Below, piece by piece: positions 35,145-48,297 of a DNA stretch of 64,000 nt. The number at the start of each line of letters is the position of its first letter. Positions within the stretch are counted from its first letter, which is position 1. This stretch comes from Desulfovibrionaceae bacterium (GTDB taxonomy: Bacteria > Desulfobacterota > Desulfovibrionia > Desulfovibrionales > Desulfovibrionaceae): NCBI GenBank assembly GCA_031082225.1, contig JAVHLG010000014.1, forward strand, positions 1 through 64,000, given 5' to 3'. A program made the position numbers and the translations under genes. Under the pieces are notes generated by a model. The model did no database searches and was not told the DNA's origin. It saw only the letters and a list, made by a program, of their open reading frames with translations.

Positions 35145-37910
35145 TCATTTCGATGAAACAACACGTCCCTTCCCAGCCCTGGCAAGCATAACCCGCAGTT
35201 CGTCCATATCCACGGGCTTGGCCAGATAGCCGTCCATGCCGGAGCCCAGGAAGGCCTCCCGGTCCCCCTTGAGGGCGTGGGCCGTGACCGCCACGACGAA
35301 CAGGCCGGACACCTGGGGACGCCCATGGGCCCGGATGCGCCGGGTGGTCTCCATGCCGTCCATGCCGGGCATCTGGATATCCATGAGCACGATGTCGAAA
35401 TCCGTCGTCTCGAGCAAGGCCAGGGCCTCTCCGCCGCCCTGCACCCCAACGGTCATGCAGCCGAGCCGCTCCAGAAGTTTGACCGCCGTCAACCGGTTCA
35501 GGTCGTCGTCTTCCACGACCAGCACGCGAAGCCCTGTCGGGCTGTCCATATCCTGCGCCGGGAGCGGGGCGCGAGGCGTCGCCGCCTCCCCGGGCGGCGG
35601 CAGGGACGGAACCGGACGGCGCGCAGAGGCCTGCGGGGGAGGAGGCGTCCCGGCGGGGGCTTCGTCGGCGGGAGGGCCAGAAGACTGCAGAAGGCGGACC
35701 CGGACGGTGAACCGGGCCCCCTCGCCCTCCCGGCTGTGCAGGCTGATGGTGCCGCCCATGGCCGCCGCCAGACGCTTGACGATGGACAACCCCAGGCCCG
35801 TCCCCTGGCGGCGGTGCTCCATGGAGGCTCCGACCTGCCGGAACGGCTCGAAAATCCGCCCCTGGACCTCCTCGGGGATGCCCACGCCCGTGTCCGCAAC
35901 CACCAGTTCAAGGACCGTCTCGCCCGGGCGTTCCCCTGCGGCGTCCCGCCCGATGCCCACCCGCACCCCGCCGGAATCCGTAAATTTGAGGGCGTTGCCC
36001 ACCAGATTGAACAGGATCTGCTTGAGGCGCGCCGCATCGCCCCGCACCCACGGCGGGACGTCCGGCGCGATCTCGACCGACAGTTCAAGCCCCTTGGCCT
36101 CCATCTGGGCCCCGAAAAGCCCCCGAACGGCATCCGCCAGATCGGCGACCCGGAAGTCCCGCTGCACAAGGTCGATGCGCCCGGCCTCGATCTTGGAGAA
36201 GTCCAGCACCTCCCCGATGACCTGCAAAAGGGTCCGCGCCGCGCCCAAGGCGGCTTCCAGATATTGGCGATGCTTTGGATCCAGAGTCTCGCCGTACAGG
36301 ATCTGCAACATGCCCAACACGCCGTTTAAGGGCGTGCGAATCTCGTGGCTCATGCTGGCCAGGAAATCGCTCTTGCCCCGGCTGGCCTCCTCGGCCTTTT
36401 CCTTGGCCGCCACAAGCTCGGCCTGGGCCGTCGCAAGCGCCGTGACGTCCACCAAAAGGCCCACAAGACCCGCCACCTCGCCTGCGGCGTCGCGGTAGGC
36501 GGCCTTGTGGAAAATCATCTGGCGCTCTCCCTCCGAGGCGGACCAGGCCGTCGCCTCGTAAAGCTGACGCCCCCCCCGGATCATGAGTTCCTCGTCGTTG
36601 GCGACGTTGTGCGCGGCGGCCTCGGGCGGGAAGATATCGAAACACGTTTGGCCGATGATCTCCCCTTCGTCCTTGCCCGCAAATTCGGCGAAGGCCCGGT
36701 TGCAGCCCACAAACCGGCCGAAACGGTCCTTGTGGTAGATGGGGATGGGGGCGGCCTCGATCAGGGCGCTGACAAAGGAAAACTGGCGTTCAAGCTCCTT
36801 TTTCGCCGTGTCGCGCTCCTGCTCGCGCCGGGCCAGGGCCTCGGCCATGGCATCGAAATCCCGGGCCAGCGCCCCGATCTCCCCCCCGGTCCGGATACCG
36901 GTCCTGGAGGTGGAATCGCCCTCCTTGACCCGTTTTGCCGCCCGGGTCAGGGACTGGAGCGGATCGAGGATGGTGCGGCGGGCGAAGATCCAGGCGGCGG
37001 CCAAGGCCGCACAGGCGGCCAGAAGCAACCCCAGCACGTGCTGAACCAGAATCCGCCGGGATTTTTCCAGGGCCTGCGCCTCGGGGATGCCCACGATGGC
37101 CGTCATGAACCGGCCGGGATCGTCGGCATCGCCGACCGCCAGGCGTTTGTAGGCATAGATGCGCCGGTCGCCCCCGATGCCCGGGGCCGTGAAGACGCCC
37201 TCCTCCAGGCCGTTGTTGATATGTTCCTGCAGACGTTCGGGCAGGGATTTGCCCACCCAGTCCACGGCGTCCCGGTTGCGGAAAAGGACCGTGCCCCCGG
37301 CATCGGCCAGGGTCAAGGTGGCGTCGGGGGGCAGGCTGGCCCTGGCGTAGAGGCTGCCGTAATGCTCCAGATCCAGGGCCGCGCCCAGGATGAAGTCCAC
37401 CCGGCCCTGGGCGTCGAGCGCCGGAAAGGCCATGGGCAGCGAGGCTTTGCGCGCCGAACGGCTGACCAGGAACCGGCCCACGGTGAACGCCTTGCTCCTT
37501 GTGACCTCGGCAAACCACTCCCGGTCGGCCACGCTTATGGGCTTGGTCTCGGGCAGGGCGCATCCGAAGACCTCGCCCGACGGATCCACGGCCACCAGGG
37601 TGGAATAAAACGGTGTGTGGGCATGCAGCTCCGCCAGGATGCGGTCCGTGGCGGCCACGTTGCGGGCCTTGATTTCGGGAATGTGGGCCAGGGTGTTCAA
37701 GACGTGCCGGGTGGTCTCCACCAGCCGGTCCTGCTCGTGGCCGAAAAGCCGCACCAGCCCTACGACCTGCTGCTTGGCCTCCTCGACGGCCGCCTGACGC
37801 TGCTGCAGACCGGAATACACAGCCAGGGCCAGGGCCGGGAGCAGCACCAGCAGGACCAGGATGACCAGTTGGTCGCGAAGCCTGAGAGACCAGAGTCGAC
37901 GAAAACCCAT
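35145..37910 (-). CDS. Large membrane hybrid histidine kinase (dCACHE-HAMP-PAS-HisKA-REC)
   Basis: 921 residues, starting MGFRRLWSLRLRDQ. A first membrane helix (LVILVLLVLLPALALAVYSG), an extracytoplasmic double-CACHE sensor about 40-290 (VADREWFAEVTRSKAFTVGR), a second helix about 300-325 and HAMP are followed by a PAS domain (AAPIPIYHKDRFGRFVGCNR), HisKA (MSHEIRTPLNGVLG), HATPase (NLVGNALKFTD, GTGLGLSIVKRL) and, after a Pro-rich linker, a receiver (DIVLMDIQMPGMDG). CACHE domains bind small ligands such as amino acids or carboxylates. No cognate output gene is adjacent. Confidence 0.92.
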   Translation of the reverse strand: MGFRRLWSLRLRDQLVILVLLVLLPALALAVYSGLQQRQAAVEEAKQQVVGLVRLFGHEQDRLVETTRHVLNTLAHIPEIKARNVAATDRILAELHAHTPFYSTLVAVDPSGEVFGCALPETKPISVADREWFAEVTRSKAFTVGRFLVSRSARKASLPMAFPALDAQGRVDFILGAALDLEHYGSLYARASLPPDATLTLADAGGTVLFRNRDAVDWVGKSLPERLQEHINNGLEEGVFTAPGIGGDRRIYAYKRLAVGDADDPGRFMTAIVGIPEAQALEKSRRILVQHVLGLLLAACAALAAAWIFARRTILDPLQSLTRAAKRVKEGDSTSRTGIRTGGEIGALARDFDAMAEALARREQERDTAKKELERQFSFVSALIEAAPIPIYHKDRFGRFVGCNRAFAEFAGKDEGEIIGQTCFDIFPPEAAAHNVANDEELMIRGGRQLYEATAWSASEGERQMIFHKAAYRDAAGEVAGLVGLLVDVTALATAQAELVAAKEKAEEASRGKSDFLASMSHEIRTPLNGVLGMLQILYGETLDPKHRQYLEAALGAARTLLQVIGEVLDFSKIEAGRIDLVQRDFRVADLADAVRGLFGAQMEAKGLELSVEIAPDVPPWVRGDAARLKQILFNLVGNALKFTDSGGVRVGIGRDAAGERPGETVLELVVADTGVGIPEEVQGRIFEPFRQVGASMEHRRQGTGLGLSIVKRLAAAMGGTISLHSREGEGARFTVRVRLLQSSGPPADEAPAGTPPPPQASARRPVPSLPPPGEAATPRAPLPAQDMDSPTGLRVLVVEDDDLNRLTAVKLLERLGCMTVGVQGGGEALALLETTDFDIVLMDIQMPGMDGMETTRRIRAHGRPQVSGLFVVAVTAHALKGDREAFLGSGMDGYLAKPVDMDELRVMLARAGKGRVVSSK

Positions 37911-38238
37911 GGATGGCAACCCCTCCTGGGGAACCGCACGAAACCATGCGGAACCGGGCCGCCGGAAAAAGACTCCGGTGGACCATGCCGCCGCCCGTCC
38001 CCATTGGCTTCCCGGGCAGCATGAAACACCGCTCCTGTTGTCTCGCTGCAACGTCCTGCAACAAACAAATCAACGAGTTACCCATAATTCGTATCCTTTT
38101 CGGACAGATTGCGCAACTGCGTCTGACCCGTTGTCGCGCCCGGTCGTCCGCCGGTTTGCCCACAGCCGCGATTTGGGCTACATCAGGCCATCGTCCGACA
38201 TCTTCACAGCGCGTCCCCCGCATCCCAAGGAGTCGCCC
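37911..38238. other. Divergent intergenic region between kinase and trxB-like gene
   Basis: 328 bp without a gene. It must hold the start signals of both flanking genes. The middle part (38030-38110) is AT-richer. A weak candidate for the plus-strand gene is TTGCCC-N17-TACATC near 38154-38182. I see no repeat element here. Confidence 0.4.
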
Positions 38239-39990
38239 ATGAGTCCTTTTTTCGGAAAAAAAACCGAGGAGAATGCCCCGTCCACCCTCTCCCAGGCCGC
38301 CGACGGACCCGTCGCCACGCCGGACACGCCCGCCCCGGCCGACGACTGGTTTCTGCCCGAGGACACCCGGCGCGACGTGGTCCGGCTTTTCGAGCGCCTG
38401 GCCGGTCCCGTGGCCCTTGAGGTCTTCACCGCGCCGGACCACAATGCCCCTTACAACGACTATCTCCTCACGTTCCTTCGCGACCTGTCGCGCCTGGACG
38501 ACCGCATCCAGGTGAAGGCCTTCGCTGTGTCCGACGACGCGGCCAAAACCCGGGGCGTGGACTTCTCCCCCACCCTGCTCTTTTCCCCGGACGATCTGTC
38601 CATCCGCTACCTGGGCGCGCCGCTTGGCGAGGAGGTACGCACCTTCATGGAGGTCCTTTTGCGCGTCTCGGCCCGGCAAAGCGGCCTGTCCGAGACCTCG
38701 AAGAAAACCTTGGCCGCCCTCAAAGATCCGCGCCGGGTCACGGTGTTCGTCAATCCGGCCTGCCCCTATTGCCCGGGCCAGGTCTTAAACGCCTTCCGCT
38801 GCGCCATTGAGCGCCCGGACCTGGTCGCCGCCACGTGCATCGACGCCGCCCAGCACACCGAAGCGGCCACGGCGCGCGGCGTGGGGTCCGTGCCCCACAC
38901 CATCATCGAAGACCCCGACGGCAGCCTGGCCCCGCTCGCCATCCTGGGCCTTGAGCCCGAGGACCGGTTCGTGGCCGGGCTCACGACCATGCAGTCCGCG
39001 CCCATCCGGACCGACGACCCGGACGCCGCCCATGACCATGCCCACGGCCATGCCGGGGACGTGGCGGTCAAGGAGGTGGACGTGGTGGTCATCGGGGCGG
39101 GACCGGCCGGGCTCACGGCCGGGATGTACGCCGCCCGGGGCGGGTTGACCGCCGTGGTCCTGGAGAAGGCCATGGTCGGCGGCCAGGTGGCCGTGACCCC
39201 GCAGGTGGAGAACTATCCCGGATTCGCCACGGTGGCCGGGACCAAGCTCATGGAGATGGTGGCGGCCCAGACGAGGCAGTACGTGCCCGTCATCGAGGGC
39301 GCGGGGGTGGACGAGATCAAGATCGGCAGGCGCATCGAGGTGGACTCAGGCGACACGGTCTACCTGTGCCGGGCGCTGATCCTGGCCACCGGGGCCACCT
39401 GGCGCAAGCTCGGCATCCCGGGAGAGGACCGCTATTTCGGGCGCGGGGTGAGCGCCTGCGCGGCCTGTGACGGCTACCTCTACAAGGACGCGGCCGTGGC
39501 CGTGGTGGGCGGCGGCAACACCGCGCTCACCGAGGCCCTGCATCTGGCCAGACTGGGCTCGAACGTCACGATCATCCACCGCCGGGACGCATTCCGGGCC
39601 GAAAAGCATCTGGTGGACGCGCTGGAGACAGAAGGCGTGGAGGTGGTCTGGAACTCGGTTGTCGAGGAGGTTCTGGGCGACGACGCGGGCGTGACCGCGG
39701 TGCGGCTGAAAAATACGGCCGACGGGAGCACCCGGGAGCTTGCTGTCCGGGCGCTCTTCGTGGCCGTGGGGTACATCCCGGTGACCGGGCTGGCCCAGGA
39801 CATTGGCCTGACCCTGGACGAGGCGGGCTATATCAAGGTGGATGCGGGCATGCGCACGAGCATCCCCAGGGTCTATGCCTGCGGCGACGTGACCGGCGGG
39901 GTGCGACAGATCGTCACGGCGGTCGGGCAGGGGGCCACGGCGGCGCTGTCGGCGTTTGAGGATATTTCGCATCCGTATTGGAAGAAGTGA
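38239..39990 (+). CDS. Fusion of glutaredoxin-like disulfide oxidoreductase and thioredoxin reductase
   Basis: 583 residues with an AAGGAG start. Residues 45-255 are a double thioredoxin fold (PDO/AhpF-N type); the first half has lost its CxxC, the second has CPYC at 175-178. A His/Asp-rich linker (about 259-274) joins it to a TrxB-like flavoprotein: FAD motif VVIGAGPAGLTAG, redox centre CAAC at 407-410, NADPH motif VVGGGNTALTEAL, and YACGDVTGG. Layout mirrors AhpF, but the reductase comes second with a TrxB-type active site. It may pass electrons from NAD(P)H to CPYC and on to a peroxiredoxin or ribonucleotide reductase. No ahpC is adjacent. Confidence 0.9.
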   Translation: MSPFFGKKTEENAPSTLSQAADGPVATPDTPAPADDWFLPEDTRRDVVRLFERLAGPVALEVFTAPDHNAPYNDYLLTFLRDLSRLDDRIQVKAFAVSDDAAKTRGVDFSPTLLFSPDDLSIRYLGAPLGEEVRTFMEVLLRVSARQSGLSETSKKTLAALKDPRRVTVFVNPACPYCPGQVLNAFRCAIERPDLVAATCIDAAQHTEAATARGVGSVPHTIIEDPDGSLAPLAILGLEPEDRFVAGLTTMQSAPIRTDDPDAAHDHAHGHAGDVAVKEVDVVVIGAGPAGLTAGMYAARGGLTAVVLEKAMVGGQVAVTPQVENYPGFATVAGTKLMEMVAAQTRQYVPVIEGAGVDEIKIGRRIEVDSGDTVYLCRALILATGATWRKLGIPGEDRYFGRGVSACAACDGYLYKDAAVAVVGGGNTALTEALHLARLGSNVTIIHRRDAFRAEKHLVDALETEGVEVVWNSVVEEVLGDDAGVTAVRLKNTADGSTRELAVRALFVAVGYIPVTGLAQDIGLTLDEAGYIKVDAGMRTSIPRVYACGDVTGGVRQIVTAVGQGATAALSAFEDISHPYWKK

Positions 39991-42721: not shown

Positions 42722-42748
42722 TATTCAAAAGGACAGGAGCGATAGCCC

Positions 42749-43069
42749 ATGCAAATACTTCTCATTCTTTCCAGTCCCGACCCGGAAATCAAATGGAACG
42801 CCGTGCGGTTCGGCAATTTCCTTTTGAACGAAGGCGAAGAGGTGACGCTGTTTTTGAACGGCCCGGCCGTGGACCTGTACGCCGGGGACTCGGAGGCGTT
42901 CCCCATCGCCGAGCAGGCCAAGGTGTTCGCCCTAAGCGACGGCAAACTCGCGGCCTGAGGCAAGTGCATGGGCGTCCACGGTGTGGAGGCCTCCCAGTAC
43001 GTGCCCCTGTCGAATATGAAGTTTCTCTATGAGCAGGTGAAGCTGGCGGAGAGGATCATCAACTTCTAG
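42749..43069 (+). CDS. DsrE-like selenoprotein with in-frame UGA (Sec70)
   Basis: 106 residues if the TGA at 42956-42958 is read as selenocysteine; a conventional reading stops at 69. The start MQILLILSSPDPEIK follows AGGAG. After the TGA the same frame goes on as GKCMGVHGVEASQYVPLSNM and ends NF, TAG. This tail completes a DsrE/DsrF-type fold, including a final helix. The redox site is then Sec-Gly-Lys-Cys (U70, C73), replacing the CxxC of cysteine homologues. A SECIS-like hairpin follows the TGA. selA is encoded 3.8 kb away. DsrE-like proteins act in sulfur transfer or thiol redox, and Sec-containing DsrE-like families have been reported. It is a single gene. Confidence 0.82.
42971..42991 (+). 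promoter_or_regulatory. Bacterial SECIS element
   Basis: GGC-G-TCCAC-GGT-GTGGA-G-GCC: a 5-bp upper stem, a G/G mismatch, a 3-bp lower stem and a GGU apical loop, as in known bacterial SECIS loops bound by SelB. The loop lies 22-24 bases after the UGA, within the normal distance. It is entirely inside the coding region. Confidence 0.75.
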
Positions 43070-46896: not shown

Positions 46897-48297
46897 ATGA
46901 CCACGCTCTTCCGCCATCTGCCGTCCATGGACGCCATTTTGGCCCATCTCGTCAGCCAAAAACCCTTCGACAGCCTGCCCCGGCCGCTTGTGCGCCAGGC
47001 CGCCGACCGCTTCCTGGACGTGGTGCGCGAGGAGATACGCGCCGGGCTCGTCCCCGGCCCCGAGGCCCTGGCCCTTCCCGCCCTGGCCCCGCGCCTGTGC
47101 GCCTTCGCCGCCGCCCACACCAGGCCGCGCTTCCGGCGCGTCATAAACGCCACGGGCGTGGTGGTGCATACCAACCTGGGCCGCTCGCTTCTGGCCGACG
47201 CCGCCGTAGCCGCCGTGGCCGAGGCCGCCGCCCGCTATTCCAACCTGGAGTTCGACCTGGCCACGGGCGAACGCGGCAGCCGCTATTCCCATGTCGAAGA
47301 CCTCTTAAAAACCCTGACCGGGGCCGAAGCCGCCCTGGTGGTCAACAACAACGCCGCCGCCGTGCTCATCATCCTGGACACCCTGGCCAGGGGCCGCGAG
47401 GTCATCGTCTCCCGGGGCCAGTTGGTCGAAATCGGCGGCTCCTTCCGCATCCCCGAGGTCATGGCCAAAAGCGGCGCGATCTTAAAGGAAGTCGGAGCCA
47501 CCAACCGCACCCACCGCCGCGACTACGAAAATGCCATCACCGACGCCACCGCCGCCCTGCTCAAGGTCCACACCTCCAATTTCAAGATCATCGGCTTCAC
47601 CAAGGAAGTCCCCCTCAAGGAACTCAAAGAGATCGGCCAGGCCCACGGCCTGCCGGTCATCGAAGACCTGGGCTCGGGCAACCTCTTTGACTTCTCCACC
47701 CTGGCCATGGGCCACGAACCCACGGTGCAGCGCGTGGTGGCCGACGGCGCGGACGTGGTCAGCTTCAGCGGCGACAAGGTGCTGGGCGGCCCCCAGGCCG
47801 GGATCATCGTCGGCAAAAAGCACTACATTGACCGCATCAAGAAAAATCCCCTGAACCGGGCGCTGCGCATCGACAAGATGACCCTGGCCGCCCTGGAGGC
47901 CACCCTGCGCCTGTACCTCGATCCGGCCCTGGCTGCCGCCAAAGTCCCCACCCTGGCGCTCATCGCCCAGTCGCCCGACACCCTGCGCAAAAAGGCCCGC
48001 CGCCTGGCCGCCATCCTGCGCAAGACCGCGCCAGGCCTCCTGACCGCCACAACACGGCCCGGCGCGTCACGCGTGGGCGGCGGCGCGTTCCCCGAGGAAG
48101 ACCTGCCAACCACCCTGGTGGCAATAACCCCCACCGACGCCGCCGTCACCGCCGACGCCCTGCGCGAACGGCTGCTGGCCGCCACGCCGCCCCTGGTAGC
48201 GCGCATCGAACACGATACCCTGTGCCTCGACCCGCGCACCCTGGCCGATGATGAACTGGCGGTTGCGGCTCAAGCGTTGGTGCAGGCCCTGGAGTAA
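46897..48297 (+). CDS. selA: L-seryl-tRNA(Sec) selenium transferase SelA
   Basis: 466 residues. PLP enzyme that turns seryl-tRNA(Sec) into selenocysteyl-tRNA(Sec) with selenophosphate. The PLP lysine is Lys294 in FSGDKVLGGPQAG; RVINATGVVVHTNLGRSLLA, NNNAAAVLIIL and VEIGGSFRIPEVM are hallmark segments. Length equals that of the E. coli enzyme. The ribosome site is weak (GGGAC). selB often follows selA, but here a photolyase gene follows, so selB, selC and selD lie elsewhere. Its presence supports selenocysteine reading of the DsrE-like gene. Confidence 0.96.
   Translation: MTTLFRHLPSMDAILAHLVSQKPFDSLPRPLVRQAADRFLDVVREEIRAGLVPGPEALALPALAPRLCAFAAAHTRPRFRRVINATGVVVHTNLGRSLLADAAVAAVAEAAARYSNLEFDLATGERGSRYSHVEDLLKTLTGAEAALVVNNNAAAVLIILDTLARGREVIVSRGQLVEIGGSFRIPEVMAKSGAILKEVGATNRTHRRDYENAITDATAALLKVHTSNFKIIGFTKEVPLKELKEIGQAHGLPVIEDLGSGNLFDFSTLAMGHEPTVQRVVADGADVVSFSGDKVLGGPQAGIIVGKKHYIDRIKKNPLNRALRIDKMTLAALEATLRLYLDPALAAAKVPTLALIAQSPDTLRKKARRLAAILRKTAPGLLTATTRPGASRVGGGAFPEEDLPTTLVAITPTDAAVTADALRERLLAATPPLVARIEHDTLCLDPRTLADDELAVAAQALVQALE

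Follow-up and report, generated by a model that had tools for sequence, protein, structure and literature searches.

Selenoproteins of the DsrE-like family, with a UxxC site in which U is selenocysteine (Sec), were described from the Sargasso Sea in 2005 (PMC1088965), and a DsrE-like selenoprotein was listed for D. vulgaris in 2006 (PMC1794560). The 2008 GOS paper split the family into DsrE 1 and DsrE 2 (PMC2398784), a DsrE-like selenoprotein also figures in reviews of 2022 and 2026 (PMC9312934, PMC13188914), and the table entry WP_014524487.1 is given as a DsrE-like selenoprotein in two later reviews. In the table passages of these publications the family is entered as a UxxC redox motif and in no other form, and the functions of the group that contains it are called largely uncharacterised where the 2026 review treats them (PMC13188914). 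For DsrE itself, PMC3397948 reports that sulfur is bound at Cys78 and handed to DsrC, that this residue is the one persulfurated in A. vinosum, and that a single Cys is needed for sulfur transfer by characterised DsrE and TusD.

The window that we analysed is a stretch of 64,000 nucleotides from a Desulfovibrionaceae bacterium (contig JAVHLG010000014.1). The preliminary description of this DNA pointed to a frame that ends after residue 69 under a standard reading and stays open for 36 codons past a TGA, and this is what we found (Table 1). The frame runs from ATG to TAG with the TGA as its single internal stop, so that 69 residues, the TGA and 36 further residues follow one another (MQILLILSS...GKLAA-TGA-GKCMGVHGV...AERIINF-TAG). 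The full 106-residue product matched Pfam DsrE (PF02635; E 1.9e-06, 28.5 bits with a cut-off of 22.7) over profile positions 2-116 of 116, in agreement with the DsrE-like assignment made earlier; the 69-residue truncation gave no Pfam match with an E of 1 or less. An NCBIfam scan of the protein matched no family, and a search of the genome with the protein as query returned the gene itself as the sole match. Purine-rich stretches like the one upstream of the ATG also precede the starts of many homologues, as judged by eye. The promoter scan found none, and the terminator scan a single site on the opposite strand.

Table 1. Features of the DsrE-like locus, in coordinates of the window
Feature	Position	Strand	Basis
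Predicted DsrE-like selenoprotein gene, 106 residues, Sec at 70, TAG stop	42749..43069	+	Pfam DsrE, homologues, pN/pS, model
In-frame TGA, codon 70, putatively read as Sec (U of UGKC)	42956..42958	+	TGA/Cys column in homologues; Sec machinery in genome
Shine-Dalgarno-like AGGAG, 9 nt 5' of ATG	42735..42739	+	Sequence reading
SECIS-like hairpin	42970..42992	+	Folding; covariation in relatives; published model
selA, selenocysteine synthase	46909..48279	+	609 bits to TIGR00474; Sec machinery component

We compared the gene with homologues in three samples. Among 59 genomes, 23 (the window's own included) had a match and 36 had none; these gave 25 homologous places, 22 with an internal TGA (one of them also with a TAA), two with Cys (G025, G034) and one decayed fragment (G002). 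A scan of named genomes yielded 15 loci, mostly from Desulfovibrionales and other Deltaproteobacteria by title, and 105 of 395 genomes matched in a sample of the phylum. There, 62 of the 74 rows of at least 90 bits carried a TGA (two also a TAG) and 12 had no stop, the position being checked in fetched loci. The collected set held 93 rows; three were without the codon-70 column, and the remaining 90 reduced to 84 distinct homologues covering it, with TGA in 68, Cys in 15 and another codon in one. The last comes from a gene with a frameshift, being its row in the other frame, and TGA or Cys thus stands at this position in 83/84. Since 20 of the fetched places were picked partly for their tandem or Cys appearance, the ratio of Sec to Cys should not be read as a census. 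The 15 Cys homologues fit the earlier proposal of a UxxC site (here UGKC) with Cys counterparts, and homologues lacking Cys/Sec at this position or lacking the downstream tail, which had been named as grounds for calling the gene a pseudogene, were not seen. Three residues on, at the position of Cys73, Cys is found in 56 of the 68 Sec members and Leu, Ser or Ala in 12, two of which are incomplete genes. We note that the terminal stop is also TGA in 30/70 TGA rows, so that the same codon would there mean Sec inside the gene and stop at its end.

For the part 3' of the TGA, we compared the window gene with 27 relatives and obtained a pN/pS of 0.16-0.72 in 26 cases; only L028 gave a higher ratio (1.35), and an inserted codon puts it out of register. 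The set was filtered by length and TGA, which omitted L012, L015, L016, L031-L038 and L040, and it counts L023 and L039, identical copies from one genome. These values indicate purifying selection on the sequence beyond the TGA. A tree of 77 rows (short rows and copies omitted) required six Sec/Cys changes, at least five of them forced by supported branches, and many of its forks are unsure because the columns are few. One gene on the Sec side of this tree, that of G205 (L056/L090, the same gene), reads CGKC yet retains, 20 nt further downstream, a hairpin of 6 bp (-4.9 kcal/mol); it may have switched from Sec to Cys and kept a relic of the SECIS. In G002 the intact gene is closely followed by a decayed duplicate of its tail that does not include the Sec codon (L017/L040, G002:C1:4107134-4107241).

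The hairpin downstream of the TGA has an upper stem of 5 bp (42975-42979/42983-42987, UCCAC/GUGGA) and a GGU loop at 42980-42982, that is, 22-24 nt after the TGA, as described earlier, with 21 nt between UGA and loop. A G.G mismatch (42974/42988) separates it from a lower stem of 4 bp (42970-42973/42989-42992). The 27-nt piece with both stems had an energy of -14.4 kcal/mol, and the upper stem alone, not crossing the G.G, one of -4.1 kcal/mol. In the model given in PMC13188914, the bacterial element has a loop of 3-9 nt with a G in the first two, an upper stem of 4-16 bp, a distance of 16-37 nt from the UGA and an MFE of at most -7.5 kcal/mol; the window hairpin lies within these bounds when the lower stem is counted. 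Shuffled sequences folded as well in 11/200, 10/200 and 31/200 cases for three pieces and in 41/200 for a 61-nt piece. The energy alone is weak evidence, and it is conservation and covariation that carry the hairpin. Rfam, at gathering thresholds, gave no match in the 40-50 kb part of the window.

Two alignments were made from the homologues: A1 with 31 of 40 homologue loci (L001 being the window itself; L015, L016, L017, L021, L022, L031, L038, L039 and L040 left out) and A2 with 27 TGA genes (Cys, UQKS and UGVC types and decayed and near-duplicate loci left out). For 27 aligned genes, RNAalifold returned, unprompted, a single helix of 7 bp with a loop of 3 nt. Its cells were paired in 98.4% of cases compared to 91.4% in shuffles (0/500 as high), and pairing fell to 26.5-55.6% when the partner strand was slid. 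Three pairs had changed on both sides, a number reached by 2/500 shuffles; further pair types showed no excess (6 versus 5.5 in shuffles). In a larger set of 50 sequences, which leaves aside 17 of the 67 TGA stretches because their loops are of other types (UGVC, UGTC, UGSC, UGAC, ULTC) and still has a few decayed genes, 342/350 helix cells were paired. Covariation in the relatives and the published constraints both agree with the SECIS suggested at the outset. The best allowed ungapped hairpin averaged -8.6 kcal/mol over 67 Sec stretches compared to -2.2 over 15 Cys stretches, with a missing hairpin counted as 0 (none in 1/67 TGA and 3/15 Cys stretches); the two ranges overlap, and 5/15 Cys members have a stronger hairpin than the -4.1 kcal/mol of the window's upper stem.

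To the variable pair of the helix, codon 76 contributes its first base and codon 80 its last. This position was paired in 47 of the 50 sequences, with ATC/GAT in 16, CTC/GAG in 15 and GTC/GAC in three, and none of 20000 permutations, which ignore relatedness, gave pairing as high. Even the choice of Asp codon followed: Asp80 was encoded by GAT in 16/16 genes whose codon 76 starts with A, and by GAC in 3/4 whose codon 76 starts with G. Because codons 76 and 80 pair in the stem, residues 76 and 80 co-vary through the RNA (Ile-Asp, Leu-Glu), a compact case of RNA structure steering protein sequence. The window and G002, both G.G, are exceptions at this pair.

We further investigated the Sec machinery. 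Absence of selB or selC had been named as an argument for a pseudogene, and no such absence appeared: the window's own genome has tRNA-Sec (84.2 bits), selB (380 bits) and selD (331 bits, itself with a TGA), as well as selA (609 bits) and two formate dehydrogenases with TGA. It also has dsrA (633 bits) and dsrC (118 bits), which makes the earlier view of the host as a sulfate reducer reasonable. Because the tRNA-Sec model weakly matches other tRNAs as well (14/14 control genomes match, 5 of them over the cut-off of 47), we counted only matches of at least 75 bits, clear ones scoring 75-88. Such matches were present in 54/59 genomes, while 56/59 pass the cut-off, and 18 of 21 genomes with a TGA homologue had both selB over its cut-off and tRNA-Sec of at least 75 bits. 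G016 (430 contigs) has tRNA-Sec and selA with selB and selD below cut-off, and G032 (64% complete) has selA alone over cut-off. G008 (100% complete) is without selA, selB or selD over cut-off and has no homologue. G010 (3 contigs, 95% complete) has a TGA gene with an intact hairpin (L026, G010:C2:796176-796493); there, selA gave no match and selB one below cut-off, the SelD gene has no TGA, no formate dehydrogenase with a TGA was found, and the best tRNA-Sec match, 47.9 bits, is just over the cut-off of 47. By eye, the gene lies beside a transposase-like frame and ∼1.8 kb from a contig end, so that recent import, loss of the machinery and an assembly gap are all possible.

The preliminary description had also placed selA nearby, and it lies 3.8 kb from the gene in the window. 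In G002, of the same genus, the distance is <3 kb, and selB, selA and the DsrE-like gene fall within 8 kb. A tblastn search with the window's SelA recovered the window (positive control) and none of the other loci examined, 8 of the 15 named loci extending at least 4 kb downstream, and the linkage is therefore not general. The neighbours in the window are, by eye, motB-like and carbonic-anhydrase-like. Clustering of neighbours, where shadow frames of this same gene make up many of the clusters, gave no conserved partner gene for the window's clade. Elsewhere the gene sits, again by eye, between ilv-like genes at six loci, which represent about four distinct genomes since the proteins are identical within two pairs, and by a pyrR-like gene at four. 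Upstream in the window, at a distance of 2.8 kb, is a frame that resembles thioredoxin reductase and whose N-terminal part is glutaredoxin-like and contains CPYCPG (37861-39990, by eye). Adjoining DsrE paralogues were seen at some loci, a Cys copy beside a Sec copy in L075, L076 and L085 (the Cys copy of L085 seems cut short) and two Sec copies in L086, an arrangement suggestive of heteromers. A cysteine-rich neighbour recurs near UGKL, UKKA and UGKS members (L038, L076, L079, L085); we take it to be DUF5714-like.

A predicted model of the protein (pLDDT 96.5, pTM 0.88) has a strand at 66-70 that is ended by Sec70 and followed by a helix at 71-77. The claim of a typical C-terminal helix was roughly right, in that the part after the TGA is modelled as helices 71-77 and 90-99, but a strand, 102-105, is present as well. 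A 69-aa product would be without Sec70, the two helices and the last strand; the standard reading loses the reactive residue and about one-third of the fold, which is corrected here. As modelled, the fold is YchN/DsrE/TusD-like: the best matches are YchN (Z 16.2), practically level with an archaeal DsrE/F-like protein (3mc3, 16.1), and 2hy5_A of DsrEFH and 2d1p_A of TusBCD (Z 14.2, 2.0 Å over 106 residues of the predicted model), and the entries at rank 11 and below (Z 7.0 or lower) are apparently unrelated folds. In a profile alignment Sec70 stands opposite the first Cys of the YchN CKTC. An hhalign comparison with TusD, weak (E 0.041, probability 1.3%), put TusD Cys78 opposite Cys73, whereas the spacing to the following RG of TusD (HG here) favours, by eye, Sec70 opposite Cys78.

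Taken together, the comparative evidence indicates that the frame is almost certainly a real selenoprotein gene. We infer Sec insertion at codon 70 from the frame, its conservation, the RNA helix in relatives, the machinery and the fold: SelB and Sec-tRNA would read the UGA as Sec, guided by the hairpin just downstream. That the TGA is instead an ordinary stop, ending a 69-residue protein or a pseudogene with a downstream frame arising by chance, seems to us extremely improbable. Although the standard reading does end there, the hairpin energy alone is weak and G010 keeps a TGA with no detectable selA or selB, such a stop would have to recur in 22/25 homologous places, and it sits poorly with the low tail pN/pS, the compensatory RNA changes, the Cys homologues, the Pfam match for the full length only and the presence of the machinery. 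A pseudogene or chance frame was rejected on the full-length Pfam match, the TGA of the homologues, the tail pN/pS and the RNA covariation. The protein might also handle selenium, in delivery or detoxification for the Sec pathway as suggested for YedF, rather than carry sulfur. We think this unlikely. The selA gene 3.8 kb away, the selB, selA and DsrE-like genes within 8 kb in G002, and the DsrE-like domain of YedF, which is linked to SelD in the relevant passage of PMC5322559, speak for such a role, but selA was not found in the other loci examined. The family is also not needed for Sec use, since 36/59 genomes lack a match and 54/59 have tRNA-Sec of at least 75 bits.

The choice then lies between two kinds of chemistry. 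UGKC could be a dithiol-type redox centre, that of a disulfide, peroxide or selenium-compound reductase in which Cys73 resolves Sec70, and we regard this as a serious though less probable reading: Cys at +3 in 56/68 Sec members, the YchN CxxC in the same place and the UxxC redox motif of the published table passages all agree with it. Against it, 12/68 Sec members have lost the Cys at +3 and kept Sec, and DsrE and TusD transfer sulfur with a single Cys in the account of PMC3397948. Because Cys73 is replaced by Leu, Ser or Ala in those 12 members, we lean to a sulfur carrier with one reactive site rather than a reductase of the dithiol type. The family has been listed as a selenoprotein for about 20 years, and the lineages that have dropped the second Cys but kept Sec tilt the balance, in a way that can be tested, towards one-site sulfur transfer. 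Sec70 ends the modelled strand 66-70 at the position of the first Cys in the YchN CKTC, and its selenolate would most likely bind sulfane sulfur, either as Se-SH or in a mixed selenylsulfide, and hand this on to a second thiol, the role that Cys78 plays in DsrE; Cys73 would assist in most members and be dispensable across the family. We give the sulfur-carrier function itself about an even chance, and the combined reading as selenoprotein and sulfur carrier, with both parts weighted, is fairly probable. A wider proposal is more speculative and, in our estimate, rather doubtful: a phylum-wide DsrE-fold group in which a single Sec would serve as a selenium-based sulfur carrier with or without a second Cys, sometimes encoded next to a paralogue that has Cys or a Sec of its own (G306, G438, G365, G185) as if the two made up a mixed complex like that of DsrE and DsrF, and in which protein sequence would be dictated by the SECIS helix (Ile76-Asp80, Leu76-Glu80).

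Among known systems, E. coli YchN (1jx7) is the only clear PDB sequence match (E 5.5e-05) and aligns its CKTC with UGKC, but YchN has Cys where the window protein has the predicted Sec, and identity is 18-19%. DsrE of DsrEFH and TusD of TusBCD share the whole-length fold, chain A being taken as DsrE or TusD from its length; unlike the apparently lone gene with predicted Sec described here, they are heterohexamer subunits with a reactive Cys. YedF, for which PMC5322559 describes a DsrE-like domain containing CGxC and a connection to selenium, carries in addition an N-terminal SirA-like domain, whereas the DsrE domain stands alone here. Compared by description, the closest likeness is to the published DsrE-like selenoprotein, which shares PF02635, UxxC, a bacterial SECIS-like hairpin and relatives among Deltaproteobacterial sulfate reducers in the passages that describe it; the relatives collected here differ in showing that UxxC is not strict. 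UxxL/S/A forms and the coupling of residues 76 and 80 had no report in the passages of the open-access literature searched. On the comparative evidence the gene is a further member of the established DsrE-like UxxC selenoprotein family published in 2005-2008, and our additions to this family are modest: the 76/80 coupling through the RNA stem and the loss of the second Cys in 12/68 Sec members.
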